From Pseudomonadota bacterium (lineage in GTDB: Bacteria > Pseudomonadota > Alphaproteobacteria > Micropepsales > Micropepsaceae), in the NCBI GenBank assembly GCA_021804785.1, contig JAJZGY010000022.1, forward strand, positions 1 through 39,389: DNA of 39,389 nucleotides, given 5' to 3'. The position numbers were made by a program, and so were the translations under genes. The notes under the pieces are model-generated. The model had not been told where the DNA came from, made no database searches, and saw only the letters and a list, made by a program, of their open reading frames with translations. Below are positions 240-21,510 of this stretch, piece by piece. Position 1 is the stretch's first letter; each line of letters starts with the position of its first letter.

Positions 240-332
240 TGGCGGACAGGGAGGGATTCGAACCCTCGAAACGGCTCATCACCGTTTACACACTTTCCAG
301 GCGTGCGCCTTCAACCGCTCGGCCACCTGTCC
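240..332 (-). tRNA. tRNA-Ser, anticodon GGA
   Basis: The minus strand starts GGACAGGTGGCCGAGCGG. It has the anticodon loop CTGGAAA between CACGC and GTGTG stems (anticodon GGA, reading UCC and UCU), a long variable arm with an AAACGG/CCGTTT stem as expected for a class II tRNA, the T-loop GGTTCGAATCC, and an acceptor stem GGACAGG/CCTGTCC. The discriminator G is followed by an encoded CCA (240-242). The gene is complete, so if an element is integrated at its 3' end the tRNA has been rebuilt, as is usual for such insertions. Confidence 0.97.
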
Positions 333-3494: not shown

Positions 3495-4960
3495 AATCCG
3501 AGCTGCGCACGCCTGAGTGGCAGGCCGTGTGGATTGCAGTCTGCGCTGTTGGCATTATTACGATTATCCGGGTGTGGCTTCTTATCATAACGCCGTTGCA
3601 GCTTTATCCTGACGAGGCGCAATATTGGTGGTGGGCTCAGCATCCAGCTCTAGGTTATTTCTCTAAACCGCCTCTGATCGCCTGGTGTATCTGGCTGGCC
3701 ACTCATGTTTTTGGTCGATCAGTCTGGGCCATTCGTCTTGCTTCGCCGTTGCTCCATGCGGGTACAGCCCTTCTAGTCTATGCCATTGCCAAACTTTTGG
3801 GTGGACGGCGTCTAGCCTTGTGGAGCACGCTGGCCTACGCGACGCTTCCCGGTGTTGCCTATTCATCTGGCCTGATGACCACCGATGTACCGCTCCTTTT
3901 TTTCTGGGCAATGGCTCTTTATGCGCTTTTGAGGGCGCTGGAGGAGCGTGGTTGGCGCTGGACAGCTATTTGCGGCGCGGCGATTGGATTAGGCATCCTC
4001 GCCAAATACGCCATGCTCTTCTTTGCAGTGGGGCTGCTTTTAGCGGCAACGATGTCAGTCAAAATACGGAAATTCGTCTTCGGCCGGCGTGGACTCTTGG
4101 CAGCAGCAATCGGGATTATACTGATCTCCCCCAATGCTTACTGGAATTGGCACCACCATTTTTTGACATTCGGGCACACCGCCGCCGATGCCGATTGGAG
4201 GGCCGCCAGCTTCAGCGTGAGCAATATGCTCTATTTCATGGCTGGACAATTTGGTGTGTTCGGTCCGCTGCTGATGGCGGGCTTTTTGATCGGACTTTGG
4301 CGTCTCTGGACCTCAGACCAACGGTCTGAAACCGAACTCTTGCTTGCCGTGATGGCGCTTCCCCCCCTTCTGGCGATGCTTGTGCAGAGTTTTATCTCGG
4401 TAGCCAACGCCAATTGGGCGGCACCGACATATATTTCTGCGACGCCTCTGGCGGTCATGGTGCTGATGGAGGCGCCATGGGCCCTGCTGGGATCCCTCGT
4501 TGTCGACGTGGCCGCCATGCTTTTGCTGTGGCTTGTTCTTATCTGGCCGGGTGTCGCCGGTGCGCTGGGCCAGGCCAACGCCTTCAAGCGTGAGGAGGGT
4601 TGGAGGCAACTGGGCCAAACGATCACCGCTGAAGTTCGCTCCCACCGCTATAACGTGATTGCGGCGGCCAACCGGTCTTTGCTGGCAGAGCTTACTTACT
4701 ATGCACCGTCCAGGCGGGTGCCGTTACGGGCTTGGGAGAAAAACGGGGTTGTCGCTAACAGCTTTGACATGACCATGCCTCTCTCGCGGCATGATAGCCA
4801 TGTGCTGTTGGTGCTGCTTCCACAGGAGGTCGGGGCGGTACTGCCCAGCTTCGAATCAGTCCGGCTCGTCCGGAAGCTTCAGATCCACGTTGGTGGCGGC
4901 ATCACCCGTACCGTGATGCTCTTTGAAGCGCGCAGCTTCAAGATCAGTCCCCGTCCGTAA
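3491..4960 (+). CDS. Second GT39 membrane glycosyltransferase
   Basis: A 489-residue polytopic GT-C protein starting within the ATGA overlap with the preceding gene. Its first loop has PDEAQYWWWAQHP and YFSKPPLIAW (about residues 38-65), the motif of the GT39 branch with a DEAxYW acidic site. It is clearly related to, but distinct from, the upstream protein, which has DRDEARFAQ and YKKP. The two therefore probably act on different acceptor positions or with different sugars, using lipid-linked donors made by the divergent GT2/LAB_N pair. The C-terminal part, about residues 370-489, is less hydrophobic and looks periplasmic. Confidence 0.88.
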   Translation: MKSELRTPEWQAVWIAVCAVGIITIIRVWLLIITPLQLYPDEAQYWWWAQHPALGYFSKPPLIAWCIWLATHVFGRSVWAIRLASPLLHAGTALLVYAIAKLLGGRRLALWSTLAYATLPGVAYSSGLMTTDVPLLFFWAMALYALLRALEERGWRWTAICGAAIGLGILAKYAMLFFAVGLLLAATMSVKIRKFVFGRRGLLAAAIGIILISPNAYWNWHHHFLTFGHTAADADWRAASFSVSNMLYFMAGQFGVFGPLLMAGFLIGLWRLWTSDQRSETELLLAVMALPPLLAMLVQSFISVANANWAAPTYISATPLAVMVLMEAPWALLGSLVVDVAAMLLLWLVLIWPGVAGALGQANAFKREEGWRQLGQTITAEVRSHRYNVIAAANRSLLAELTYYAPSRRVPLRAWEKNGVVANSFDMTMPLSRHDSHVLLVLLPQEVGAVLPSFESVRLVRKLQIHVGGGITRTVMLFEARSFKISPRP

Positions 4961-5232
4961 CAGGAATTCGTCACAGTGTTTGGGCAGGCAGCAGCAATCC
5001 CGTTGCCGGTCCACCGCGCGATTGATGTCCCCCGGTAGGGACCGAGTGAATTGTAGGGAAGAGATCAGTTTGATGTTTGCTTAAACGCGCCTTGCTAAGT
5101 TTTTTTGCGGACGGGGGAGGGTGGTGTGATTAGTAGTGCTTTTTTATTTGAGCAGACTTCAATAAAACTGATAAAAGTCATGACGAATTATTTATTCCAT
5201 TTGGGCGGTTCACAGTATTCGATACGGTTCTC

Positions 5233-5260
5233 TTGACGAATTGCGGAGACTGCATAAATA
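5233..5260 (+). promoter_or_regulatory. Candidate sigma-70 promoter of the kamA operon
   Basis: TTGACG (5233-5238) and TAAATA (5255-5260) are separated by 16 nt, at the end of an A+T-rich 280-bp spacer (4961-5240) that otherwise shows only T-runs and no gene. Transcription from it would start near 5267. That excludes the upstream TTG at 5241 as a start and supports translation from the ATG at 5346. Confidence 0.45.
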
Positions 5261-5345
5261 TCCGACCCAACGACGGTGCCGTGCGACGCTGGGCCAATGG
5301 GGTTCGGAGCTGCGGCACCCGATCAAGGAGCCAAGCGAGACCACA

Positions 5346-6650
5346 ATGAGTCTCCATCTGGTTCGGGGACACGATCTTAGGCCCCCGTCGCGGCAAGCCC
5401 GCAATCATTCAATCATCAACGAACAAAACATCGATCTACAGAAGGTGGCGGCAACAACAAAGCTCGGGTCGCAACGCTTTCCAGTGAGCGATACAAGCAA
5501 GCGCTTCTACCGTCGGTTCTGGCCAGAGAGTGGTCCGGGGGAGTGGAACGATTGGCACTGGCAGTTCCGCAATCGCGTTCGTAGCCCGGAAGAGTTGGCG
5601 CGGATTTTCAGGTTGTCTGCTGACGAACATGAGGCGGTCACAAACCACAAGGGCCCGCTTCCTGTCGGCATAACGCCCTATTATGCGTCCTTGATGTCGT
5701 TGGAGGACCCGCAGGAGCCTCTGCGGCGTACACATATCATGACGGGTAAGGAAGCCTTGCGTCTTCCTGGCGAAGCCGATGATCCACTGGGTGAGGATCA
5801 CGACACCGTAGTGCCGGGATTGGTGCACCGCTATCCAGATCGCGTGTTGTTTCTGACGACGGGTACATGTTCTACCTATTGTCGTTATTGTACCCGAGCA
5901 CGGGCAGTCGGAAATCCCGGCGGCGAGTACCAGTTTTCCCCAAAGCAGTGGGAACAGGCTCTGGCCTATCTGGCCGATCACACGGAAGTCCGTGATGTTC
6001 TCCTGTCTGGGGGTGATCCGCTCTCGATCGCCGATGACAAACTCGACTGGCTGCTAACCCGCTTGCGCGCCATTCCTCATATCGAGTTCCTGCGCATTGG
6101 TACGAAGATGCCGGTGGTTTTACCGCAGCGCATCACGCGCAGTCTGGTGAAGATGCTAAAGCGGCATCACCCATTGTGGATGAGCATTCATGTGACCCAT
6201 CCGCATGAGTTGACTTTGGAAGTGACGGAGGCCTTTGGCCGTTTGGCGGATGCCGGAATTCCCCTCGGCAGTCAGACGGTCCTCCTCAAGGGTATCAATG
6301 ATGACATAGGCGTCATGAAACCCTTGATGCAGGGTCTCCTGAAGCGTCGCGTCAAGCCTTACTATCTCTATCAATGTGATCCCATCCGAGGGTCAGGGCA
6401 TTTCCGCACCAGTGTTGAAAAGGGGTTGGAAATCATTGACGGGCTGCGAGGCCACACCACGGGCTATGCCTGTCCGCAGTTTGTCATTGACGCCCCTGGC
6501 GGTGGCGGCAAGATCCTGATGGCACCCAATGCAGTGGTTGGTCGAGATGGTGATGATCTGCTGCTGCGCAACTTTGAGGGTGCGGTCTACCGCTATCCCG
6601 ATCCGGAGGGGAGTATTGGCTCAGGTGCCGTGCGCCTTGCTGCGGAGTAG
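5346..6650 (+). CDS. kamA: Lysine 2,3-aminomutase-type radical SAM enzyme (KamA family)
   Basis: This 434-residue protein (clostridial lysine 2,3-aminomutase has about 416) converts an alpha- to a beta-amino acid using a 4Fe-4S cluster, SAM and PLP. The cluster motif CxxxCxxC is C175, C179 and C182. The PLP lysine is K389 in PGGGGK. D345 and D382 fall at the same spacing from that lysine as the two aspartates that bind the substrate side-chain amine in the clostridial enzyme (D293, D330, K337), which favours lysine or another diamino acid as substrate. It lacks the short form typical of EpmB, and no efp gene is adjacent. A longer reading from TTG 5241 is possible, but a promoter overlaps it. 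It heads a four-gene operon; the next gene starts 3 nt after its stop. Confidence 0.9.
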   Translation: MSLHLVRGHDLRPPSRQARNHSIINEQNIDLQKVAATTKLGSQRFPVSDTSKRFYRRFWPESGPGEWNDWHWQFRNRVRSPEELARIFRLSADEHEAVTNHKGPLPVGITPYYASLMSLEDPQEPLRRTHIMTGKEALRLPGEADDPLGEDHDTVVPGLVHRYPDRVLFLTTGTCSTYCRYCTRARAVGNPGGEYQFSPKQWEQALAYLADHTEVRDVLLSGGDPLSIADDKLDWLLTRLRAIPHIEFLRIGTKMPVVLPQRITRSLVKMLKRHHPLWMSIHVTHPHELTLEVTEAFGRLADAGIPLGSQTVLLKGINDDIGVMKPLMQGLLKRRVKPYYLYQCDPIRGSGHFRTSVEKGLEIIDGLRGHTTGYACPQFVIDAPGGGGKILMAPNAVVGRDGDDLLLRNFEGAVYRYPDPEGSIGSGAVRLAAE

Positions 6651-6653
6651 CCC

Positions 6654-7655
6654 ATGCGTATCGCTGTTACCTATGACTTGCGTAAGGACTATCTGGCGCT
6701 GGGTTACAGCGAAGAGGAAACGGCAGAATTTGACAGTGATCTGACAGTGGAGGCGCTTTGTGAGTCTCTAAGCGCGTTAGGATACGAACCGGTGCGGATC
6801 GGAAATATCCGCGCGCTGGTGATGCGCTTGGCGGCAGGTGAGCGCTGGGATGCGGCCTTCAACATCTGCGAGGGCCTCAAGGGGGTGTCCCGAGAGGCCC
6901 AGGTGCCGGCTCTCCTTGAAGCGTACGATATCCCATATGTGTTCTCTGATCCGCTCACCCTTGCGCTGTCGCTGGATAAGGCGATGGCCAAGCGCGTCGT
7001 CGCATCCCATGGCGTGCCCACTGCGGATTTTGCCGTGATCGAGCAGGAGAGCGAGGTTGACCAGATCGCCTTGCCTTACCCACTCTTTGCCAAGCCGGTT
7101 GCCGAGGGCTCGGGAAAGGGAGTTGATGCCCATTCTCTGGTACGTAACCCGGACGAACTTGCCCATACAGTGAGGGAGCTCGTTCGCCGCTTTCAGCAGC
7201 CGGTGCTAGTGGAAACCTATCTGTCGGGACCCGAGTTTACCGTTGGCATAACCGGTACGGGGGCGCTTGCGGAGGTACTCGGAGTCACTGAAATCCGCCC
7301 ATTGCCCAATTATGTCGGCCACGGTTACGGTCTCGCCAACAAGGAAACCGGCTGGGAAGACAAGGTAGAGATCCTTCTGGCCGATCCGGCTAATGCCGCT
7401 CAGGCTGCTGAAGTGGCTCTGGCGGCGTGGCGGGCGCTGCGCTGTCGCGACGGTGGGCGGGTAGATATTCGTTGCGACGGTTCTGGTAAGCACCATTTCA
7501 TAGAAATCAATCCGCTTGCTGGTATCCGGCCACATCACTCAGATCTCTGTCTGATGGCCGACAGGAAGGGCATCTCCTATCGAGAGTTGATCTCCCGCAT
7601 TATGGTATCCTTTGAGCAGCGTCAGCCGCACCTCAAGCGTCGCGCTGCAGCTTGA
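6654..7655 (+). CDS. ATP-grasp ligase, D-Ala-D-Ala ligase-like (first of two)
   Basis: A 333-residue protein with the full ATP-grasp layout. The N-terminal domain contains FNICEG (about 69-74, matching the FN..EG of Ddl). A glycine-rich ATP loop AKPVAEGSGKG lies at about 147-156, and the Mg-binding EIN (E284, N286) sits in FIEINPLAGI. Ddl-type enzymes form an acyl phosphate and join it to an amine. Context makes cell-wall Ddl unlikely: it sits 3 nt after the aminomutase gene, there are no mur genes nearby, and a second ligase follows. A beta-amino acid made by KamA is the natural guess for one substrate. The nearest general annotation would be 'D-alanine-D-alanine ligase-like protein'. Confidence 0.88.
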   Translation: MRIAVTYDLRKDYLALGYSEEETAEFDSDLTVEALCESLSALGYEPVRIGNIRALVMRLAAGERWDAAFNICEGLKGVSREAQVPALLEAYDIPYVFSDPLTLALSLDKAMAKRVVASHGVPTADFAVIEQESEVDQIALPYPLFAKPVAEGSGKGVDAHSLVRNPDELAHTVRELVRRFQQPVLVETYLSGPEFTVGITGTGALAEVLGVTEIRPLPNYVGHGYGLANKETGWEDKVEILLADPANAAQAAEVALAAWRALRCRDGGRVDIRCDGSGKHHFIEINPLAGIRPHHSDLCLMADRKGISYRELISRIMVSFEQRQPHLKRRAAA

Positions 7656-7660
7656 CGCGA

Positions 7661-8617
7661 ATGCGAATTCTTGTCCTGCATTCCTGTGTTGATGCAACTG
7701 CCCGTCCCGATGAACTGGATACGCTTGCCGTGGCCGATGCGGTATGTGACGCCTTACGCCAGAACGGTCACAGTGTGACCCGTGCAGCCTTTGTGCCGGA
7801 ACAACTGGATGCGAAGCTGGGTGACTGCGATCTTGTCTTCAATCTGGTTGAAAGCGTTGATGGGCAGGACGAACTATGTGCCATGATCCCGGCACTGCTC
7901 GAGAAGCGTGGGGTGCCATTTACCGGAGCATCGGCAGCAGCCATCCAGATCACCTCTGACAAGCCAGCAAGCAAACGCATATTGCGGGCGGTGGGGATTT
8001 CTACGCCAGATTGGTACGAAGGTCCCAATTGGGTGGGACTCGATGGCTCACGCCGCTATATCGTCAAGTCGGCGACGGCAGATGCTTCACTCGGGTTGGA
8101 TGACAGTGCGGTGGTCATTGGCTCAGGCGTCGGTGCGCGGGCGGAGGTCTGCAGGCGGCGCTTTGGCGGACGCTGGTTTGCAGAAGCCTTTGTTGACGGC
8201 CGTGAATTCAATATCGCGCTGATTGAAGACCAGTCCGCCGTCAAGGTTTTACCGCTGGCTGAAATGCGTTTCGTTGACTGGGATGACCGACGCCCCCGCA
8301 TCGTCGGTTATGGGGCGAAGTGGCACACAGAAGATCCCGCCTTCCGCGCGACTGAACGCCACTTTGGCTGTGAGAACTTGGAGCCGGAGCTGTCCGCAAG
8401 CCTGCACATGATTGCCAACCGGTGTTGGGAGATTTTCGGGCTTTCCGGCTACGGGCGCATTGACCTGCGCTTGGATTCCTGCGGAGAGCCATATGTTCTT
8501 GAACTCAACTGCAACCCCTGCTTATCGCCAGAGGCCGGCTTTGCCGCAGCTGCTCACCAGGCAGGGTTTGATTATTGCCAGCTCATCGATAACATTGTCC
8601 GGGCAGCCATTCCATGA
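7661..8617 (+). CDS. ATP-grasp ligase, D-Ala-D-Ala ligase-like (second of two)
   Basis: A 318-residue ATP-grasp protein only distantly similar to its neighbour. It has FNLVES (about 60-65) in place of FN..EG, GVPFTGASA (about 84-92) and a C-terminal Mg site E281, N283 in ELNCNPCLSPEAG. The shortened NPCLSPEAG replaces the NP.PG of classical Ddl, so the acceptor pocket probably differs. The start is taken as ATG 7661; TTG 7652 overlaps the previous stop (TTGA) and would add three residues. The next gene overlaps its stop by ATGA. Two non-identical ligases in one operon suggest two successive amide bonds, or a heteromeric ligase. Confidence 0.85.
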   Translation: MRILVLHSCVDATARPDELDTLAVADAVCDALRQNGHSVTRAAFVPEQLDAKLGDCDLVFNLVESVDGQDELCAMIPALLEKRGVPFTGASAAAIQITSDKPASKRILRAVGISTPDWYEGPNWVGLDGSRRYIVKSATADASLGLDDSAVVIGSGVGARAEVCRRRFGGRWFAEAFVDGREFNIALIEDQSAVKVLPLAEMRFVDWDDRRPRIVGYGAKWHTEDPAFRATERHFGCENLEPELSASLHMIANRCWEIFGLSGYGRIDLRLDSCGEPYVLELNCNPCLSPEAGFAAAAHQAGFDYCQLIDNIVRAAIP

Positions 8618-9090
8618 ACCAGTTTCGTAACGAACTTAAGGAAGAGGATGAGGCCAGTCTCGCCCTGCTCGTGACGCGCACAGGAGTCTTCAGCGATGAA
8701 GAAATTGCGATTGCGCGAGACCTTGTCAGGGAAACGCGTTTAGGCATGCCAGGCGCGGATTATCTGTTTCTGATTGCCGATGGTATCGCACAGATTGACG
8801 GCTATACCTGTTATGGTCGCATTCCGGCAACCGATAACCGCTTTGAGCTCTACTGGATCGCAGTGGATCCAGGCAGCCATCGTCATGGACTGGGACGTGC
8901 CCTGCTCGAGGCGAGCGAGCAAGATGTACGCAGGCGGGGTGGTACTCACCTGTTTGCAGAGACATCTACCCGGGATGATTATGCGCCAGCGCGGCGCTTC
9001 TACAAGGCCAATGGCTATAGCTTTTACGCCGAGGTGCCGGATTTTCACGCGGATGGCGATGGGCTGGCCATTTTTGGCAAGCGGCTATAG
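8614..9090 (+). CDS. GNAT-family N-acetyltransferase
   Basis: A 158-residue GNAT protein with the acetyl-CoA-binding motif A, WIAVDPGSHRHGLGRALLE (about residues 88-106, R/Q-x-x-G-x-G as RHGLGR), and a C-terminal ARRFYKANGY segment typical of the fold. It would acetylate an amine. In methanogens a KamA-type aminomutase is paired with an acetyltransferase (AblB) to make N-epsilon-acetyl-beta-lysine, but AblB is much longer, so this is an analogy and not homology by length. It is coupled to the upstream ligase (ATGA overlap) and ends tail to tail with the DMT transporter; one CTATAG palindrome (9085-9090) supplies both stop codons. Confidence 0.88.
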   Translation: MNQFRNELKEEDEASLALLVTRTGVFSDEEIAIARDLVRETRLGMPGADYLFLIADGIAQIDGYTCYGRIPATDNRFELYWIAVDPGSHRHGLGRALLEASEQDVRRRGGTHLFAETSTRDDYAPARRFYKANGYSFYAEVPDFHADGDGLAIFGKRL

Positions 9091-9996
9091 CACGGGCTCC
9101 GCTTCCACCACGGTTGGTTGTCGCAACTGTCGTTCTCGCCAGATGATAAAAAGTCCCGACGCGATCACGATGGTGGCACCCAGCATGATCCAGAAATTCG
9201 GTATTTCGGCAAACAGATACCAGCCAAGTGCGACTGCCCAAATCATCGACATATAGTCAAAGGGTGCAAGCAGTGATGGTTCAGCATAGCGATAGCTGAA
9301 CGTCATGCCAATCTGTCCGAGCCCGCCGAGAATGCCACTTACCACCAACCACAGAGTTGCCTCCCAGCTAAGGGGCACGCGGTCAAACACCATGCTAAAT
9401 CCGCCAACGAGTGAACATGTCAACATGAAGTAAAAGACGATTGTTTCGCCACGTTCGGTCTGGTGCATGGAGCGGATGAGGACGACAACTACTGCGCTGA
9501 GAAAGGCTCCGCTGAGGGCAAGGAATGCGCCTGCGGAGGAGTCAAAATGTGCCAGATCGCTCAGTCCTCCATGTGGTGCTAGCATCACCAAGACACCGAG
9601 AAATCCCACTGCGACTGCACTCCACCGGCGCGGACCCACTTTCTCGCGAAGAACGAGCGCGGCCAGTACGACTGCAAAGATGGGACTGGCAAAGCCGAAG
9701 GCCGTCAGGGCAGCCAAGGGCAGCATGGCAAGGGCCGTGAAGTTCAGAAACATCGATGACACTCCAATCAGAGAGCGTATCGCATGCACCAGAGGCCGCT
9801 GGGTACGGATAGTGGCGCGAAGTCCGATGGTCCGCGAGGAAAGCAGCAGAACTGGAATCAGGGCAAAGAAGGCACGGAAGAAAATTTCTTCTCCGACCGG
9901 GATGGAGCCGGCAAGGCGCAAGGTGGCGTACATCAACGAAAAGCAAATGGTCCCGCCGAACTTCAGGGCAACGCCTCTGCCAGATACGTTACTCAC
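9085..9996 (-). CDS. EamA/DMT-superfamily transporter
   Basis: A 303-residue protein with about ten membrane helices in two EamA repeats; the end of the first reads SPIFAVVLAALVLREKVGPRRW, the usual EamA hinge. The start is GTG 9996, with GGAAGGG at good spacing. Members export amino acids, nucleosides or other small metabolites, but specificity cannot be predicted. It converges on, and overlaps by 6 nt, the aminomutase/ligase/GNAT operon. A role in exporting that product is possible, though opposite orientation means separate regulation. Confidence 0.88.
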   Translation of the reverse strand: MSNVSGRGVALKFGGTICFSLMYATLRLAGSIPVGEEIFFRAFFALIPVLLLSSRTIGLRATIRTQRPLVHAIRSLIGVSSMFLNFTALAMLPLAALTAFGFASPIFAVVLAALVLREKVGPRRWSAVAVGFLGVLVMLAPHGGLSDLAHFDSSAGAFLALSGAFLSAVVVVLIRSMHQTERGETIVFYFMLTCSLVGGFSMVFDRVPLSWEATLWLVVSGILGGLGQIGMTFSYRYAEPSLLAPFDYMSMIWAVALGWYLFAEIPNFWIMLGATIVIASGLFIIWRERQLRQPTVVEAEPVL

Positions 9997-20469: not shown

Positions 20470-21510
20470 CTAGGCCCCGATGAAGCCTTCGAGCACGTTC
20501 ACGGTGTTTTCGGCGAGATGGGCAAGGTCATAGCCGCCTTCAAACACGAATACGGTCGGTTGGTTAAGCTGCGCGATGGCCTCTCCCAGCCTGAGATAGT
20601 CTGCACTTTGAAGCCGAAAGCGGCAAATGGGATCAAGGGCGAAGGTATCAAGCCCCAGCGACACCAGCAATACATCCGGGGAAAAAGCGCTGATACGCGT
20701 TATGGCCGTGCCCAGAGCCTCGCTATAGCCCTGCCAATCCGTCGCAACCGGCAGTGGCAGGTTGAGATTGAAACCCTCACCCTGTTCCTGACCTGTTTCC
20801 TCGGCAAAGCCCCAATACACCGGATAGGCGAATGCCGGGTCGGCATGGAGCGAAACGAACAGAACATCGTTGCGCGCGTAGAATATGTCCTGTGTCCCAT
20901 TACCATGATGATAATCAACATCAATGATCGCGCAGCGGGCGCCATGATCGACCAGGAACTGCGCTGCGATGGCCACATTATTCAGATAGCAATAGCCGCC
21001 AAACAGTGTCGCGCTCGCATGGTGACCCGGGGGGCGGGTGAGGGCAAAAGCTGCCCTTTCTCCGTCACCTACCGCAAGAGCTGCTGACAATGCCGTGTTG
21101 ACGGCAGCTAATGCAGCGCTCCATGAACCCTTGGTGAGCGGGGTGCCAGTGTCGAAACAGTAGCGGCCAAGCTGGGCTAAAACATCTTCCCGCAACAGGC
21201 CATCGGAGTGACGAAAGCCGAGGACCTGCGGAGAAAATACCGAAGGTATGGCATCGATGTTTGGGTGCATGTCGGCCCATCGCGCGTATGCGCTTTTCAG
21301 AAAGGCGACAAACGCCGGATCATGAACTCTGAGAGCCGGCGCAGAGGTAAATTCAGAGGGAGCGAGGATTGGCCCCAGGCCGCGGCTGACAATACGGCTG
21401 CGAACGGCTTCAACCCGTTCAGGGATTTCCACTGCGGGCGTCATGCGACCAGCTTCGAATTCCTGCAGGGGGGCGTGGGCACTGTGCTGTGCAGTATAGA
21501 AGGTCTTCAT
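20470..21510 (-). CDS. Histone-deacetylase-fold amidohydrolase, acetylpolyamine amidohydrolase type
   Basis: A 346-residue arginase/deacetylase-fold zinc enzyme. The complete active site is visible: the histidine pair in RPPGHHA, the zinc ligands Asp and His in DVDYHHGNGTQ, the third zinc Asp in LGLDTFALDP, and the transition-state tyrosine in FEGGYDL. The N-terminal half (AGRMTPAVEIPERVEAV, VHDPAFVAFLKSAYARW) and the DTFALDP form resemble bacterial acetylpolyamine amidohydrolases more than AcuC. The likely reaction is removal of acetyl groups from acetylated polyamines or related amines. Three neighbouring genes (this one, the DMT transporter, and the D-threonine-aldolase-like gene facing away) act on amines or amino acids, but no shared pathway is proven. 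Confidence 0.9.
   Translation of the reverse strand: MKTFYTAQHSAHAPLQEFEAGRMTPAVEIPERVEAVRSRIVSRGLGPILAPSEFTSAPALRVHDPAFVAFLKSAYARWADMHPNIDAIPSVFSPQVLGFRHSDGLLREDVLAQLGRYCFDTGTPLTKGSWSAALAAVNTALSAALAVGDGERAAFALTRPPGHHASATLFGGYCYLNNVAIAAQFLVDHGARCAIIDVDYHHGNGTQDIFYARNDVLFVSLHADPAFAYPVYWGFAEETGQEQGEGFNLNLPLPVATDWQGYSEALGTAITRISAFSPDVLLVSLGLDTFALDPICRFRLQSADYLRLGEAIAQLNQPTVFVFEGGYDLAHLAENTVNVLEGFIGA

Follow-up and report, generated by a model that had tools for sequence, protein, structure and literature searches.

A conserved aminomutase and ATP-grasp ligase operon, a candidate pathway for beta-lysine peptides

Introduction

Enzymes of the AblA family make L-beta-lysine. The AblA/AblB pathway, which yields the osmolyte N-epsilon-acetyl-beta-lysine in methanogens and some bacteria, combines a KamA-family aminomutase with a neighbouring GNAT and has beta-lysine as its intermediate. 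ATP-grasp pathways, among them those of MysD, dapdiamide and the NAGGN-type solutes, form small peptides or amino acid conjugates, sometimes with the participation of a GNAT. We know of no ATP-grasp pathway in which a lysine 2,3-aminomutase is paired with two Ddl-like ligases. Such a combination is described here for a stretch of 39,389 nucleotides (the window), which is contig JAJZGY010000022.1 of assembly GCA_021804785.1 and comes from a member of the Micropepsaceae (Alphaproteobacteria); it is one contig of a 3.29-Mb genome that is divided into 171 contigs. An operon at positions 5346 to 9090 of the window encodes an aminomutase (KamA), two ligases (LigA and LigB) and a GNAT.

The operon probably encodes a dedicated beta-lysine peptide pathway with the aminomutase, LigA and LigB as its core, a reading that is drawn from sequence comparisons and to which we assign a probability of about 70%. 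Five computational observations carry it: the gene set exists and is conserved, its catalytic residues are intact, LigA is accompanied by an aminomutase in nearly all genomes tested, and in some Bacteroidota KamA is exchanged for AblA.

The operon and its conservation

The four genes are arranged as follows.

Positions 5346 to 6650, + strand: KamA, 434 residues, Pfam PF04055 and PF12544 (Radical_SAM and LAM_C), a predicted lysine 2,3-aminomutase homologue of the radical S-adenosylmethionine (SAM) type, dependent on pyridoxal phosphate (PLP)
Positions 6654 to 7655, + strand: LigA, 333 residues, PF07478 (Dala_Dala_lig_C), a Ddl-fold ATP-grasp ligase
Positions 7661 to 8617, + strand: LigB, 318 residues, PF07478 (Dala_Dala_lig_C), the second Ddl-fold ATP-grasp ligase
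Positions 8614 to 9090, + strand: GNAT N-acetyltransferase, 158 residues, PF00583, accessory

KamA and LigA are separated by 3 nt and LigA and LigB by 5 nt (or they share a TTGA overlap, LigB having an alternative TTG start at 7652), and LigB and GNAT share an ATGA overlap. An in-frame TTG upstream of KamA, at 5241, is an alternative start.

A search with LigA against a public collection of species genomes returned 420 related stretches, and every one of the 80 best was examined. A locus was considered informative when it contained enough sequence on the relevant side, and a gene counted as linked if it had the same orientation as LigA and was no more than 6 kb away. Genes of the clustered neighbourhoods, in high-GC loci, were called by codon usage. 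Of the loci informative for the respective gene, 62 of 70 had a linked KamA and 68 of 73 a linked LigB; GNAT was linked in 34 of 53 and missing from 19, and all four genes were found together in 30 of 50. The eight loci without KamA are from Planctomycetota (three) and Bacteroidota (five). Based on these counts, the four-gene set is no chance juxtaposition. Copies of the module, judged by the titles of their records, come from Alphaproteobacteria, the former Deltaproteobacteria, Bacteroidota, Planctomycetota, Ignavibacteriota and Sumerlaeota. Eight genomes in which LigB was not seen beside LigA were searched for it; seven have it elsewhere (360-423 bits) and the eighth has a fragment at a contig end. 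In two loci (L159 and L161; L numbers denote loci and G numbers genomes) the order is rearranged such that LigA, together with KamA in L161, is convergent with LigB-GNAT, which implies that the linkage outlives the gene order.

The co-occurrence of LigA with an aminomutase was tallied in 95 LigA genomes, taken from a sample of 385 genomes of the class of the window (Alphaproteobacteria), a sample of 198 Bacteroidales genomes and two further sets of 13 and 30 genomes, with G003 counted once. An aminomutase was present in 93 of the 95. LigA was found in 27 of the 385 genomes, all 27 with KamA, which adjoins LigA in 26 (in G063 as a contig-end fragment) and is located on another contig in G203. 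The examined stretch contained LigB in all 27 and GNAT in 21. Among the Bacteroidales, LigA was present in 26 genomes; the aminomutase is an operon-type KamA in 23 of them (443-524 bits) and an AblA above the cut-off in three. The 172 Bacteroidales genomes without LigA include 29 with AblA above the cut-off and none with a match in the operon-type range. For the association of LigA with an aminomutase in this sample (26 of 26 versus 29 of 172), Fisher's test gives 1.5e-17, a value that overstates the independence of related genomes.

KamA and its replacement by AblA

Residues 58-420 of KamA align with the C. subterminale lysine 2,3-aminomutase (2a5h) with 421.8 bits. In KamA the cysteines of the CxxxCxxC motif are retained, as are the carboxylate arginine, the lysine for PLP (K337) and the two aspartates for the substrate, D293 and D330 (2a5h chain numbering, counted on the alignment); among these are the positions that in 2a5h bind PLP, the carboxylate and the epsilon-amine of lysine. 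Ten catalytic or binding residues, including the lysine-binding aspartates, are the same in every one of the 62 operon KamAs checked and of 48 additional operon-type rows, with a few repeats among the rows. The best curated NCBIfam model is TIGR03820, the AblA equivalog, with 454.5 bits, and TIGR00238 scores above its cut-off; in the 30 further genomes the best match per genome to TIGR03820 ranged from 453.7 to 514.2 bits. With 259.5 bits, KamA lies below the cut-off of 369.3 of the EpmB equivalog. In a tree of a 53-row subset that included five AblA rows, AblA forms one clade (100/100), which arises from an unresolved fork among the operon KamAs. Since the operon KamAs largely sort by lineage, with some exceptions and many unresolved forks, the gene set does not have the appearance of something that one group imported recently.

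Among the Bacteroidota with LigA and without an operon-type KamA, eight of nine genomes possess an AblA above the equivalog cut-off (G007 is the ninth), as opposed to none of the 58 LigA genomes that have an operon-type KamA. Fisher's test gives 1.4e-9, which is too small because the genomes are related; yet the background of AblA among Bacteroidales without LigA is only the 29 of 172 given above. The sole AblA neighbourhood examined by family search (L137) has genes that match the alpha subunit of lysine 5,6-aminomutase (kamD type), its B12-binding partner (kamE type) and BKACE, which together are the lysine fermentation set. Remnants of KamA were sought in eight KamA-less Bacteroidota loci and were found in three, in each case upstream of a gene for a GNAT-like domain fused to a histone-deacetylase-family (HDAC) domain, which is described below.

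L041, positions 3671 to 4210: remnant open reading frame (ORF)
L051, positions 3713 to 4210: remnant ORF
L058, positions 3680 to 4210: remnant ORF

The remnants are short open ORFs of 166-180 residues that match KamA at its N-terminus only (36-51 bits) and contain no radical-SAM cysteine motif. No remnant was found in L044, L052, L054, L213 and L214. In these Bacteroidota an AblA-type enzyme seems to take the place of the KamA of the operon. This replacement points to L-beta-lysine as the shared intermediate and is the strongest argument for it; together with the identical lysine-binding aspartates, it makes beta-lysine the most likely product of KamA.

KamA might act instead on another cationic amino acid, such as arginine, ornithine, diaminobutyrate or a lysine derivative, which would then be ligated in the same way. 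KamA does match the model of arginine 2,3-aminomutase (377.5 bits, cut-off 600), and the cut-off of AblA is not reached. However, AblA is the curated model with the highest score, D293 and D330 do not vary among the operon KamAs checked, and the enzyme found in eight of the nine Bacteroidota without an operon-type KamA is of the AblA type, with lysine fermentation genes in the neighbourhood examined. A substrate of this kind is therefore considered very unlikely.

LigA and LigB

The two ligases are dissimilar, with 22% identity over 281 columns. LigA is the more conserved and has 54 invariant columns among 66 sequences. Structure prediction yielded models with confidence scores (pLDDT) of 92.6 for LigA and 94.4 for LigB, and the nearest PDB folds of both are those of Ddl; the LigB model superimposes on 8evz_C with a VIA-align Z of 33.3 and a root-mean-square deviation of 2.2 over 286 residues. 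For each ligase, residue positions in 66 sequences were compared with the genome's own Ddl, using the E. coli Ddl numbering and residue roles as we take them to be. The positions of K97, K144, E180, E187, K215, R255, D257 and N272 are kept in 66 of 66 sequences of LigA and likewise of LigB; that of E270 is kept in all 66 LigA sequences and is occupied by Glu in 62 and by Asp in four of the LigB sequences. The ATP-binding, Mg-binding and transition-state arginine positions of Ddl are thus retained in both enzymes. The set of positions that contact D-Ala is fully kept by neither. At S150, LigA has Thr or Ser and LigB mostly Ala. At Y216, LigA has mostly Trp or Cys, also Phe, with Tyr in eight sequences, and LigB has Trp in all 66. 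Ser is found at S281 in LigA and mostly Ala in LigB, and L282 is replaced by Asp in every LigA and by Gly in every LigB sequence. LigA in addition contains the invariant acidic residues E21 and D27 beside E25, the equivalent of E15. To judge from these residues, LigA may possess an acidic substrate pocket that would suit a cationic amino acid.

Both ligases contain PF07478 and have the fold of Ddl, which would be expected if they were cell-wall ligases that form D-alanyl dipeptides or depsipeptides for resistance or a specialised peptidoglycan, the link to the aminomutase being incidental. However, both score far below the cut-off of every listed Ddl and Van model of NCBIfam (on NF002378, 142.6 bits for LigA and 99.1 for LigB, cut-off 243), and the contacts to D-Ala are changed. 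LigA occurs together with an aminomutase in nearly all of the genomes tallied, and the genome of the window has a separate canonical Ddl, with 394 bits on NF002378 and in a murB-ddl-ftsQ context. A function of LigA and LigB in the cell wall is scarcely credible, and a housekeeping Ddl role is ruled out by the separate gene. The case is also a caution that extra Ddl-like genes should not be read as cell-wall or vancomycin-type ligases.

ATP-grasp proteins encoded on rhizobial plasmids are about 31-34% identical, and three of 485 matching records were viewed. One belongs to a canonical murB-ddl-ftsQ locus and the other two have neither an aminomutase nor a second ligase among the listed genes.

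The original prediction, derived from the window alone, had described four tightly packed genes, a KamA with the iron-sulphur triad, the PLP lysine and both substrate aspartates, and two dissimilar ligases; each of these features was recovered.

GNAT, deacetylase-type fusions and a Cys-rich protein

The GNAT is accessory and does not belong to the core. Besides the 19 informative loci, it is missing from 13 of 19 close alphaproteobacterial relatives, of which six have GNAT, nine a gene for a Cys-rich protein (CysR), four neither and none both. The probability that this lack of overlap arises by chance is 0.008. Three loci of the wider set (L027, L045 and L047) carry both genes. CysR was found in L011 (2247-2837) and in 14 other alphaproteobacterial or proteobacterial loci; its gene comes after LigB, often where GNAT would otherwise be, and the protein, which is unrelated to GNAT, has about 195 residues and a C..C..C...CC pattern that is conserved. 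It has no match in Pfam, and its NCBIfam matches are all below threshold, including a faint one to flagellin lysine-N-methylase.

KamA and GNAT could together produce N-acetyl-beta-lysine by an osmolyte route like that of AblA and AblB, which is a known pathway, and the ligases would then belong to something else that travels with them. A KamA beside such a GNAT and without ligases does exist in one alphaproteobacterium (G397). Against this proposal, the GNAT is dispensable, LigB lies beside LigA or else mostly elsewhere in the same genome, and the GNAT of the window does not match the AblB model TIGR03827 at E <= 0.001. We give N-acetyl-beta-lysine as the end product a slim chance. The locus of G397 (L226, 6134-8085) encodes a KamA that is 68% identical and is located near genes of the RF3 and PleD types; its GNAT, which is related to that of the window, weakly matches TIGR03827 with 20.5 bits (cut-off 205.1), and the two genes are a possible acetyl-beta-lysine pair.

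In several lineages GNAT is part of a fusion. LigB and GNAT form a single ORF in L154 and L160, and a GNAT-HDAC-GNAT order in a single ORF, with the operon GNAT last, is found in L063, L144, L152, L164 and L165. The GNAT-HDAC gene, in which the HDAC domain follows a GNAT-like domain, occurs in 11 of the 80 loci by clustering and in 12 by profile, in operon copies from Bacteroidales, Ignavibacteria, Deltaproteobacteria and Alphaproteobacteria. Two of these proteins were run against Pfam and matched Hist_deacetyl with E of about 1e-74, their N-terminal GNAT match being weak (21 bits). Such fusions connect the pathway with acetylation and probably also with deacetylation. The HDAC domain of one fusion protein was searched against PDB, where the nearest entry was acetylpolyamine amidohydrolase 6phr (241.7 bits). 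According to PMC11532494, bacterial polyamine deacetylases act on substrates resembling acetylcadaverine and on some acetyl-lysine peptides, so that a terminal acetyl group on a lysine-like chain would be a fitting substrate.

N-Acetylation might serve as a reversible protecting group. The GNAT would mask one amine of beta-lysine, the ligases would couple the unmasked groups and the fused HDAC-type domain would remove the acetyl group. All steps would then be encoded in one operon and, in some lineages, the GNAT-HDAC-GNAT steps in one polypeptide; in operon copies without GNAT-HDAC, the acetyl cap would stay in place or never be added, or a deacetylase encoded elsewhere would remove it. We consider this idea doubtful. 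If it holds, it would represent a new ribosome-independent logic for the synthesis of beta-amino-acid peptides. A candidate for a separately encoded deacetylase is a stand-alone, single-domain gene of the HDAC family (PF00850) in the window at 20470-21510 (- strand), about 11 kb from the operon, whose product shares 38-43% identity with the HDAC domain found in the operon fusions of other lineages.

The proposed pathway

In the beta-lysine peptide pathway proposed here, KamA would convert L-lysine to L-beta-lysine by radical SAM and PLP chemistry. LigA and LigB would each convert a carboxylate to an acyl phosphate, which would then react with an amine, and two such ligations in succession would give a short beta-lysine-containing peptide. 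Of the two, LigA is more likely to handle beta-lysine. In lineages with GNAT, including that of the window, acetylation would occur on an amine, either in the product or in an intermediate, and in some lineages the attached deacetylase-type domain could remove the acetyl group. We infer that beta-lysine is a substrate of the ligases, that there are two ligation steps and that the product is a small peptide rather than a modified protein. For its physiological role, the foremost candidates are a compatible solute and a secreted small molecule.

Instead, a protein, a lipid or a cell-wall precursor could be the acceptor to which the ligases couple beta-lysine or a beta-lysyl peptide. ATP-grasp ligases can modify proteins and beta-lysine is known on elongation factor P (EF-P); furthermore, no exporter gene recurs in all lineages of the clustered neighbourhoods, and in L221 a stand-alone KamA is directly followed by an AmpG-family muropeptide transporter gene. 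Modification of a macromolecule is nevertheless unlikely, since both ligase models are nearest to Ddl, a small-molecule amino acid ligase, the clustered loci show no recurrent gene for a candidate target and EF-P has its own enzymes. On contig C27 of the genome of the window, a separate EpmA (364.2 bits) adjoins an AblA_like_2 protein (449.7 bits), both above their cut-offs, and modification of EF-P is ruled out as the role of the operon. With this pair and the canonical Ddl, EF-P modification and wall synthesis each have genes of their own and are not required as explanations of the operon. The stand-alone KamA of L221 and the transporter gene occupy 7216-9801; a locus of the same family, L220 (3230-5770), has a gene of equal length in the equal place after KamA.

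Several observations count against the beta-lysine peptide pathway or limit what can be concluded from its evidence. KamA scores below the equivalog cut-off of AblA (454.5 versus 525.4 bits, TIGR03820), and the tree did not set the operon KamAs apart from AblA as a single clade. No good KamA is seen in the LigA genomes G007 and G011, their LigA genes being 155 and 22 bp from a contig end. The samples include related genomes, and all Fisher values therefore overstate independence. The sequences point to no particular partner amino acid and are compatible with a protein target. In the class sample, 15 genomes have KamA at E <= 1e-90 without a LigA match; in one of them, G218, LigA is cut by the contig end, and the other 14 of the 385 genomes, several of which are 98-100% complete, have no LigA at E <= 1e-40. 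These 14 genomes indicate that the KamA group also has other uses. The dependence thus appears to be one-sided, the ligases requiring the aminomutase but not the reverse.

The original prediction for the pathway is supported in part. The set is conserved as a unit, the two ligases belong with KamA, and beta-lysine remains the predicted product of the aminomutase. Two findings that it had named as contrary, a KamA that acts only on EF-P and ligases that act only on D-Ala, are opposed by the separate EpmA and AblA-like pair and by the changed D-Ala contacts, the scores below all curated Ddl cut-offs and the separate canonical Ddl. The GNAT, which had been counted as part of the unit, has to be removed from its core. 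The prediction had foreseen neither the GNAT-HDAC fusion nor the exchange of KamA for AblA.

Surroundings of the operon

The operon is met at its end by a convergent transporter gene, also foreseen in the prediction, which overlaps the end of GNAT by 6 nt.

Positions 9085 to 9996, - strand: EamA/DMT (drug/metabolite) transporter, 303 residues, PF00892, a possible exporter, lineage-specific

A convergent EamA/DMT homologue is present in part of the alphaproteobacterial loci examined. Upstream, an Rfam search of positions 4900-5500 up to E = 1 revealed no riboswitch or other RNA, and a pattern scan of 4900-9200 for promoters and terminators gave no more sites than shuffled sequences. A tRNA-Ser (GGA) at 240-332 (- strand) is the sole tRNA and the sole Rfam match at the gathering threshold in the window. 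Five Bacteroidota loci (L052, L037, L044, L054 and L074) share a gene downstream of the operon, which in L052 encodes an Lrp/AsnC-type regulator, a candidate amino acid sensor.

Significance and comparison with known systems

The operon points to a seemingly undescribed metabolite pathway with a wide distribution among bacteria that are mostly uncultured; annotation would label its genes in them Ddl, KamA and GNAT. A search of the open literature found no description of the gene set; subscription papers were mostly outside its scope, and an earlier mention of the neighbourhood is possible. If the proposal is correct, the product would be a beta-lysine peptide made without the ribosome or a nonribosomal peptide synthetase. 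The natural exchange of KamA for AblA provides a clear substrate prediction, and with its few small, soluble enzymes the pathway could be tested in E. coli.

Compared with AblA/AblB, the operon has two Ddl-fold ligases as a constant part, its KamA lies under the AblA cut-off, and its GNAT is not AblB-like and is often missing. Lysine fermentation (KamA, KamDE, Kdd, Kce) has an AblA-type KamA and appears to supply beta-lysine to the Bacteroidota operons without KamA; it differs from the operon in being catabolic and without ligases. EpmA/EpmB, which beta-lysylate EF-P, resemble the operon as predicted here in that a KamA-family enzyme makes beta-lysine for an amide-forming step, but the EpmA route uses a ligase that resembles an aminoacyl-tRNA synthetase, in contrast to the ATP-grasp ligases of the operon. 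DdlA, DdlB and the VanA-type ligases have the fold, the ATP and Mg positions and the transition-state arginine in common with LigA and LigB, from which they are set apart by the D-Ala contacts, the listed cut-offs and the presence of another, canonical Ddl in the genome. The bacterial acetylpolyamine amidohydrolases (cluster 4 of PMC11532494) are the nearest PDB kin (6phr) of the HDAC domain, which in the associated fusion protein comes after a GNAT-like domain and, in certain lineages, also precedes the operon GNAT. The MysD, dapdiamide and NAGGN-type pathways, finally, share with the operon what is proposed for its product, a small peptide or conjugate built by ATP-grasp enzymes.

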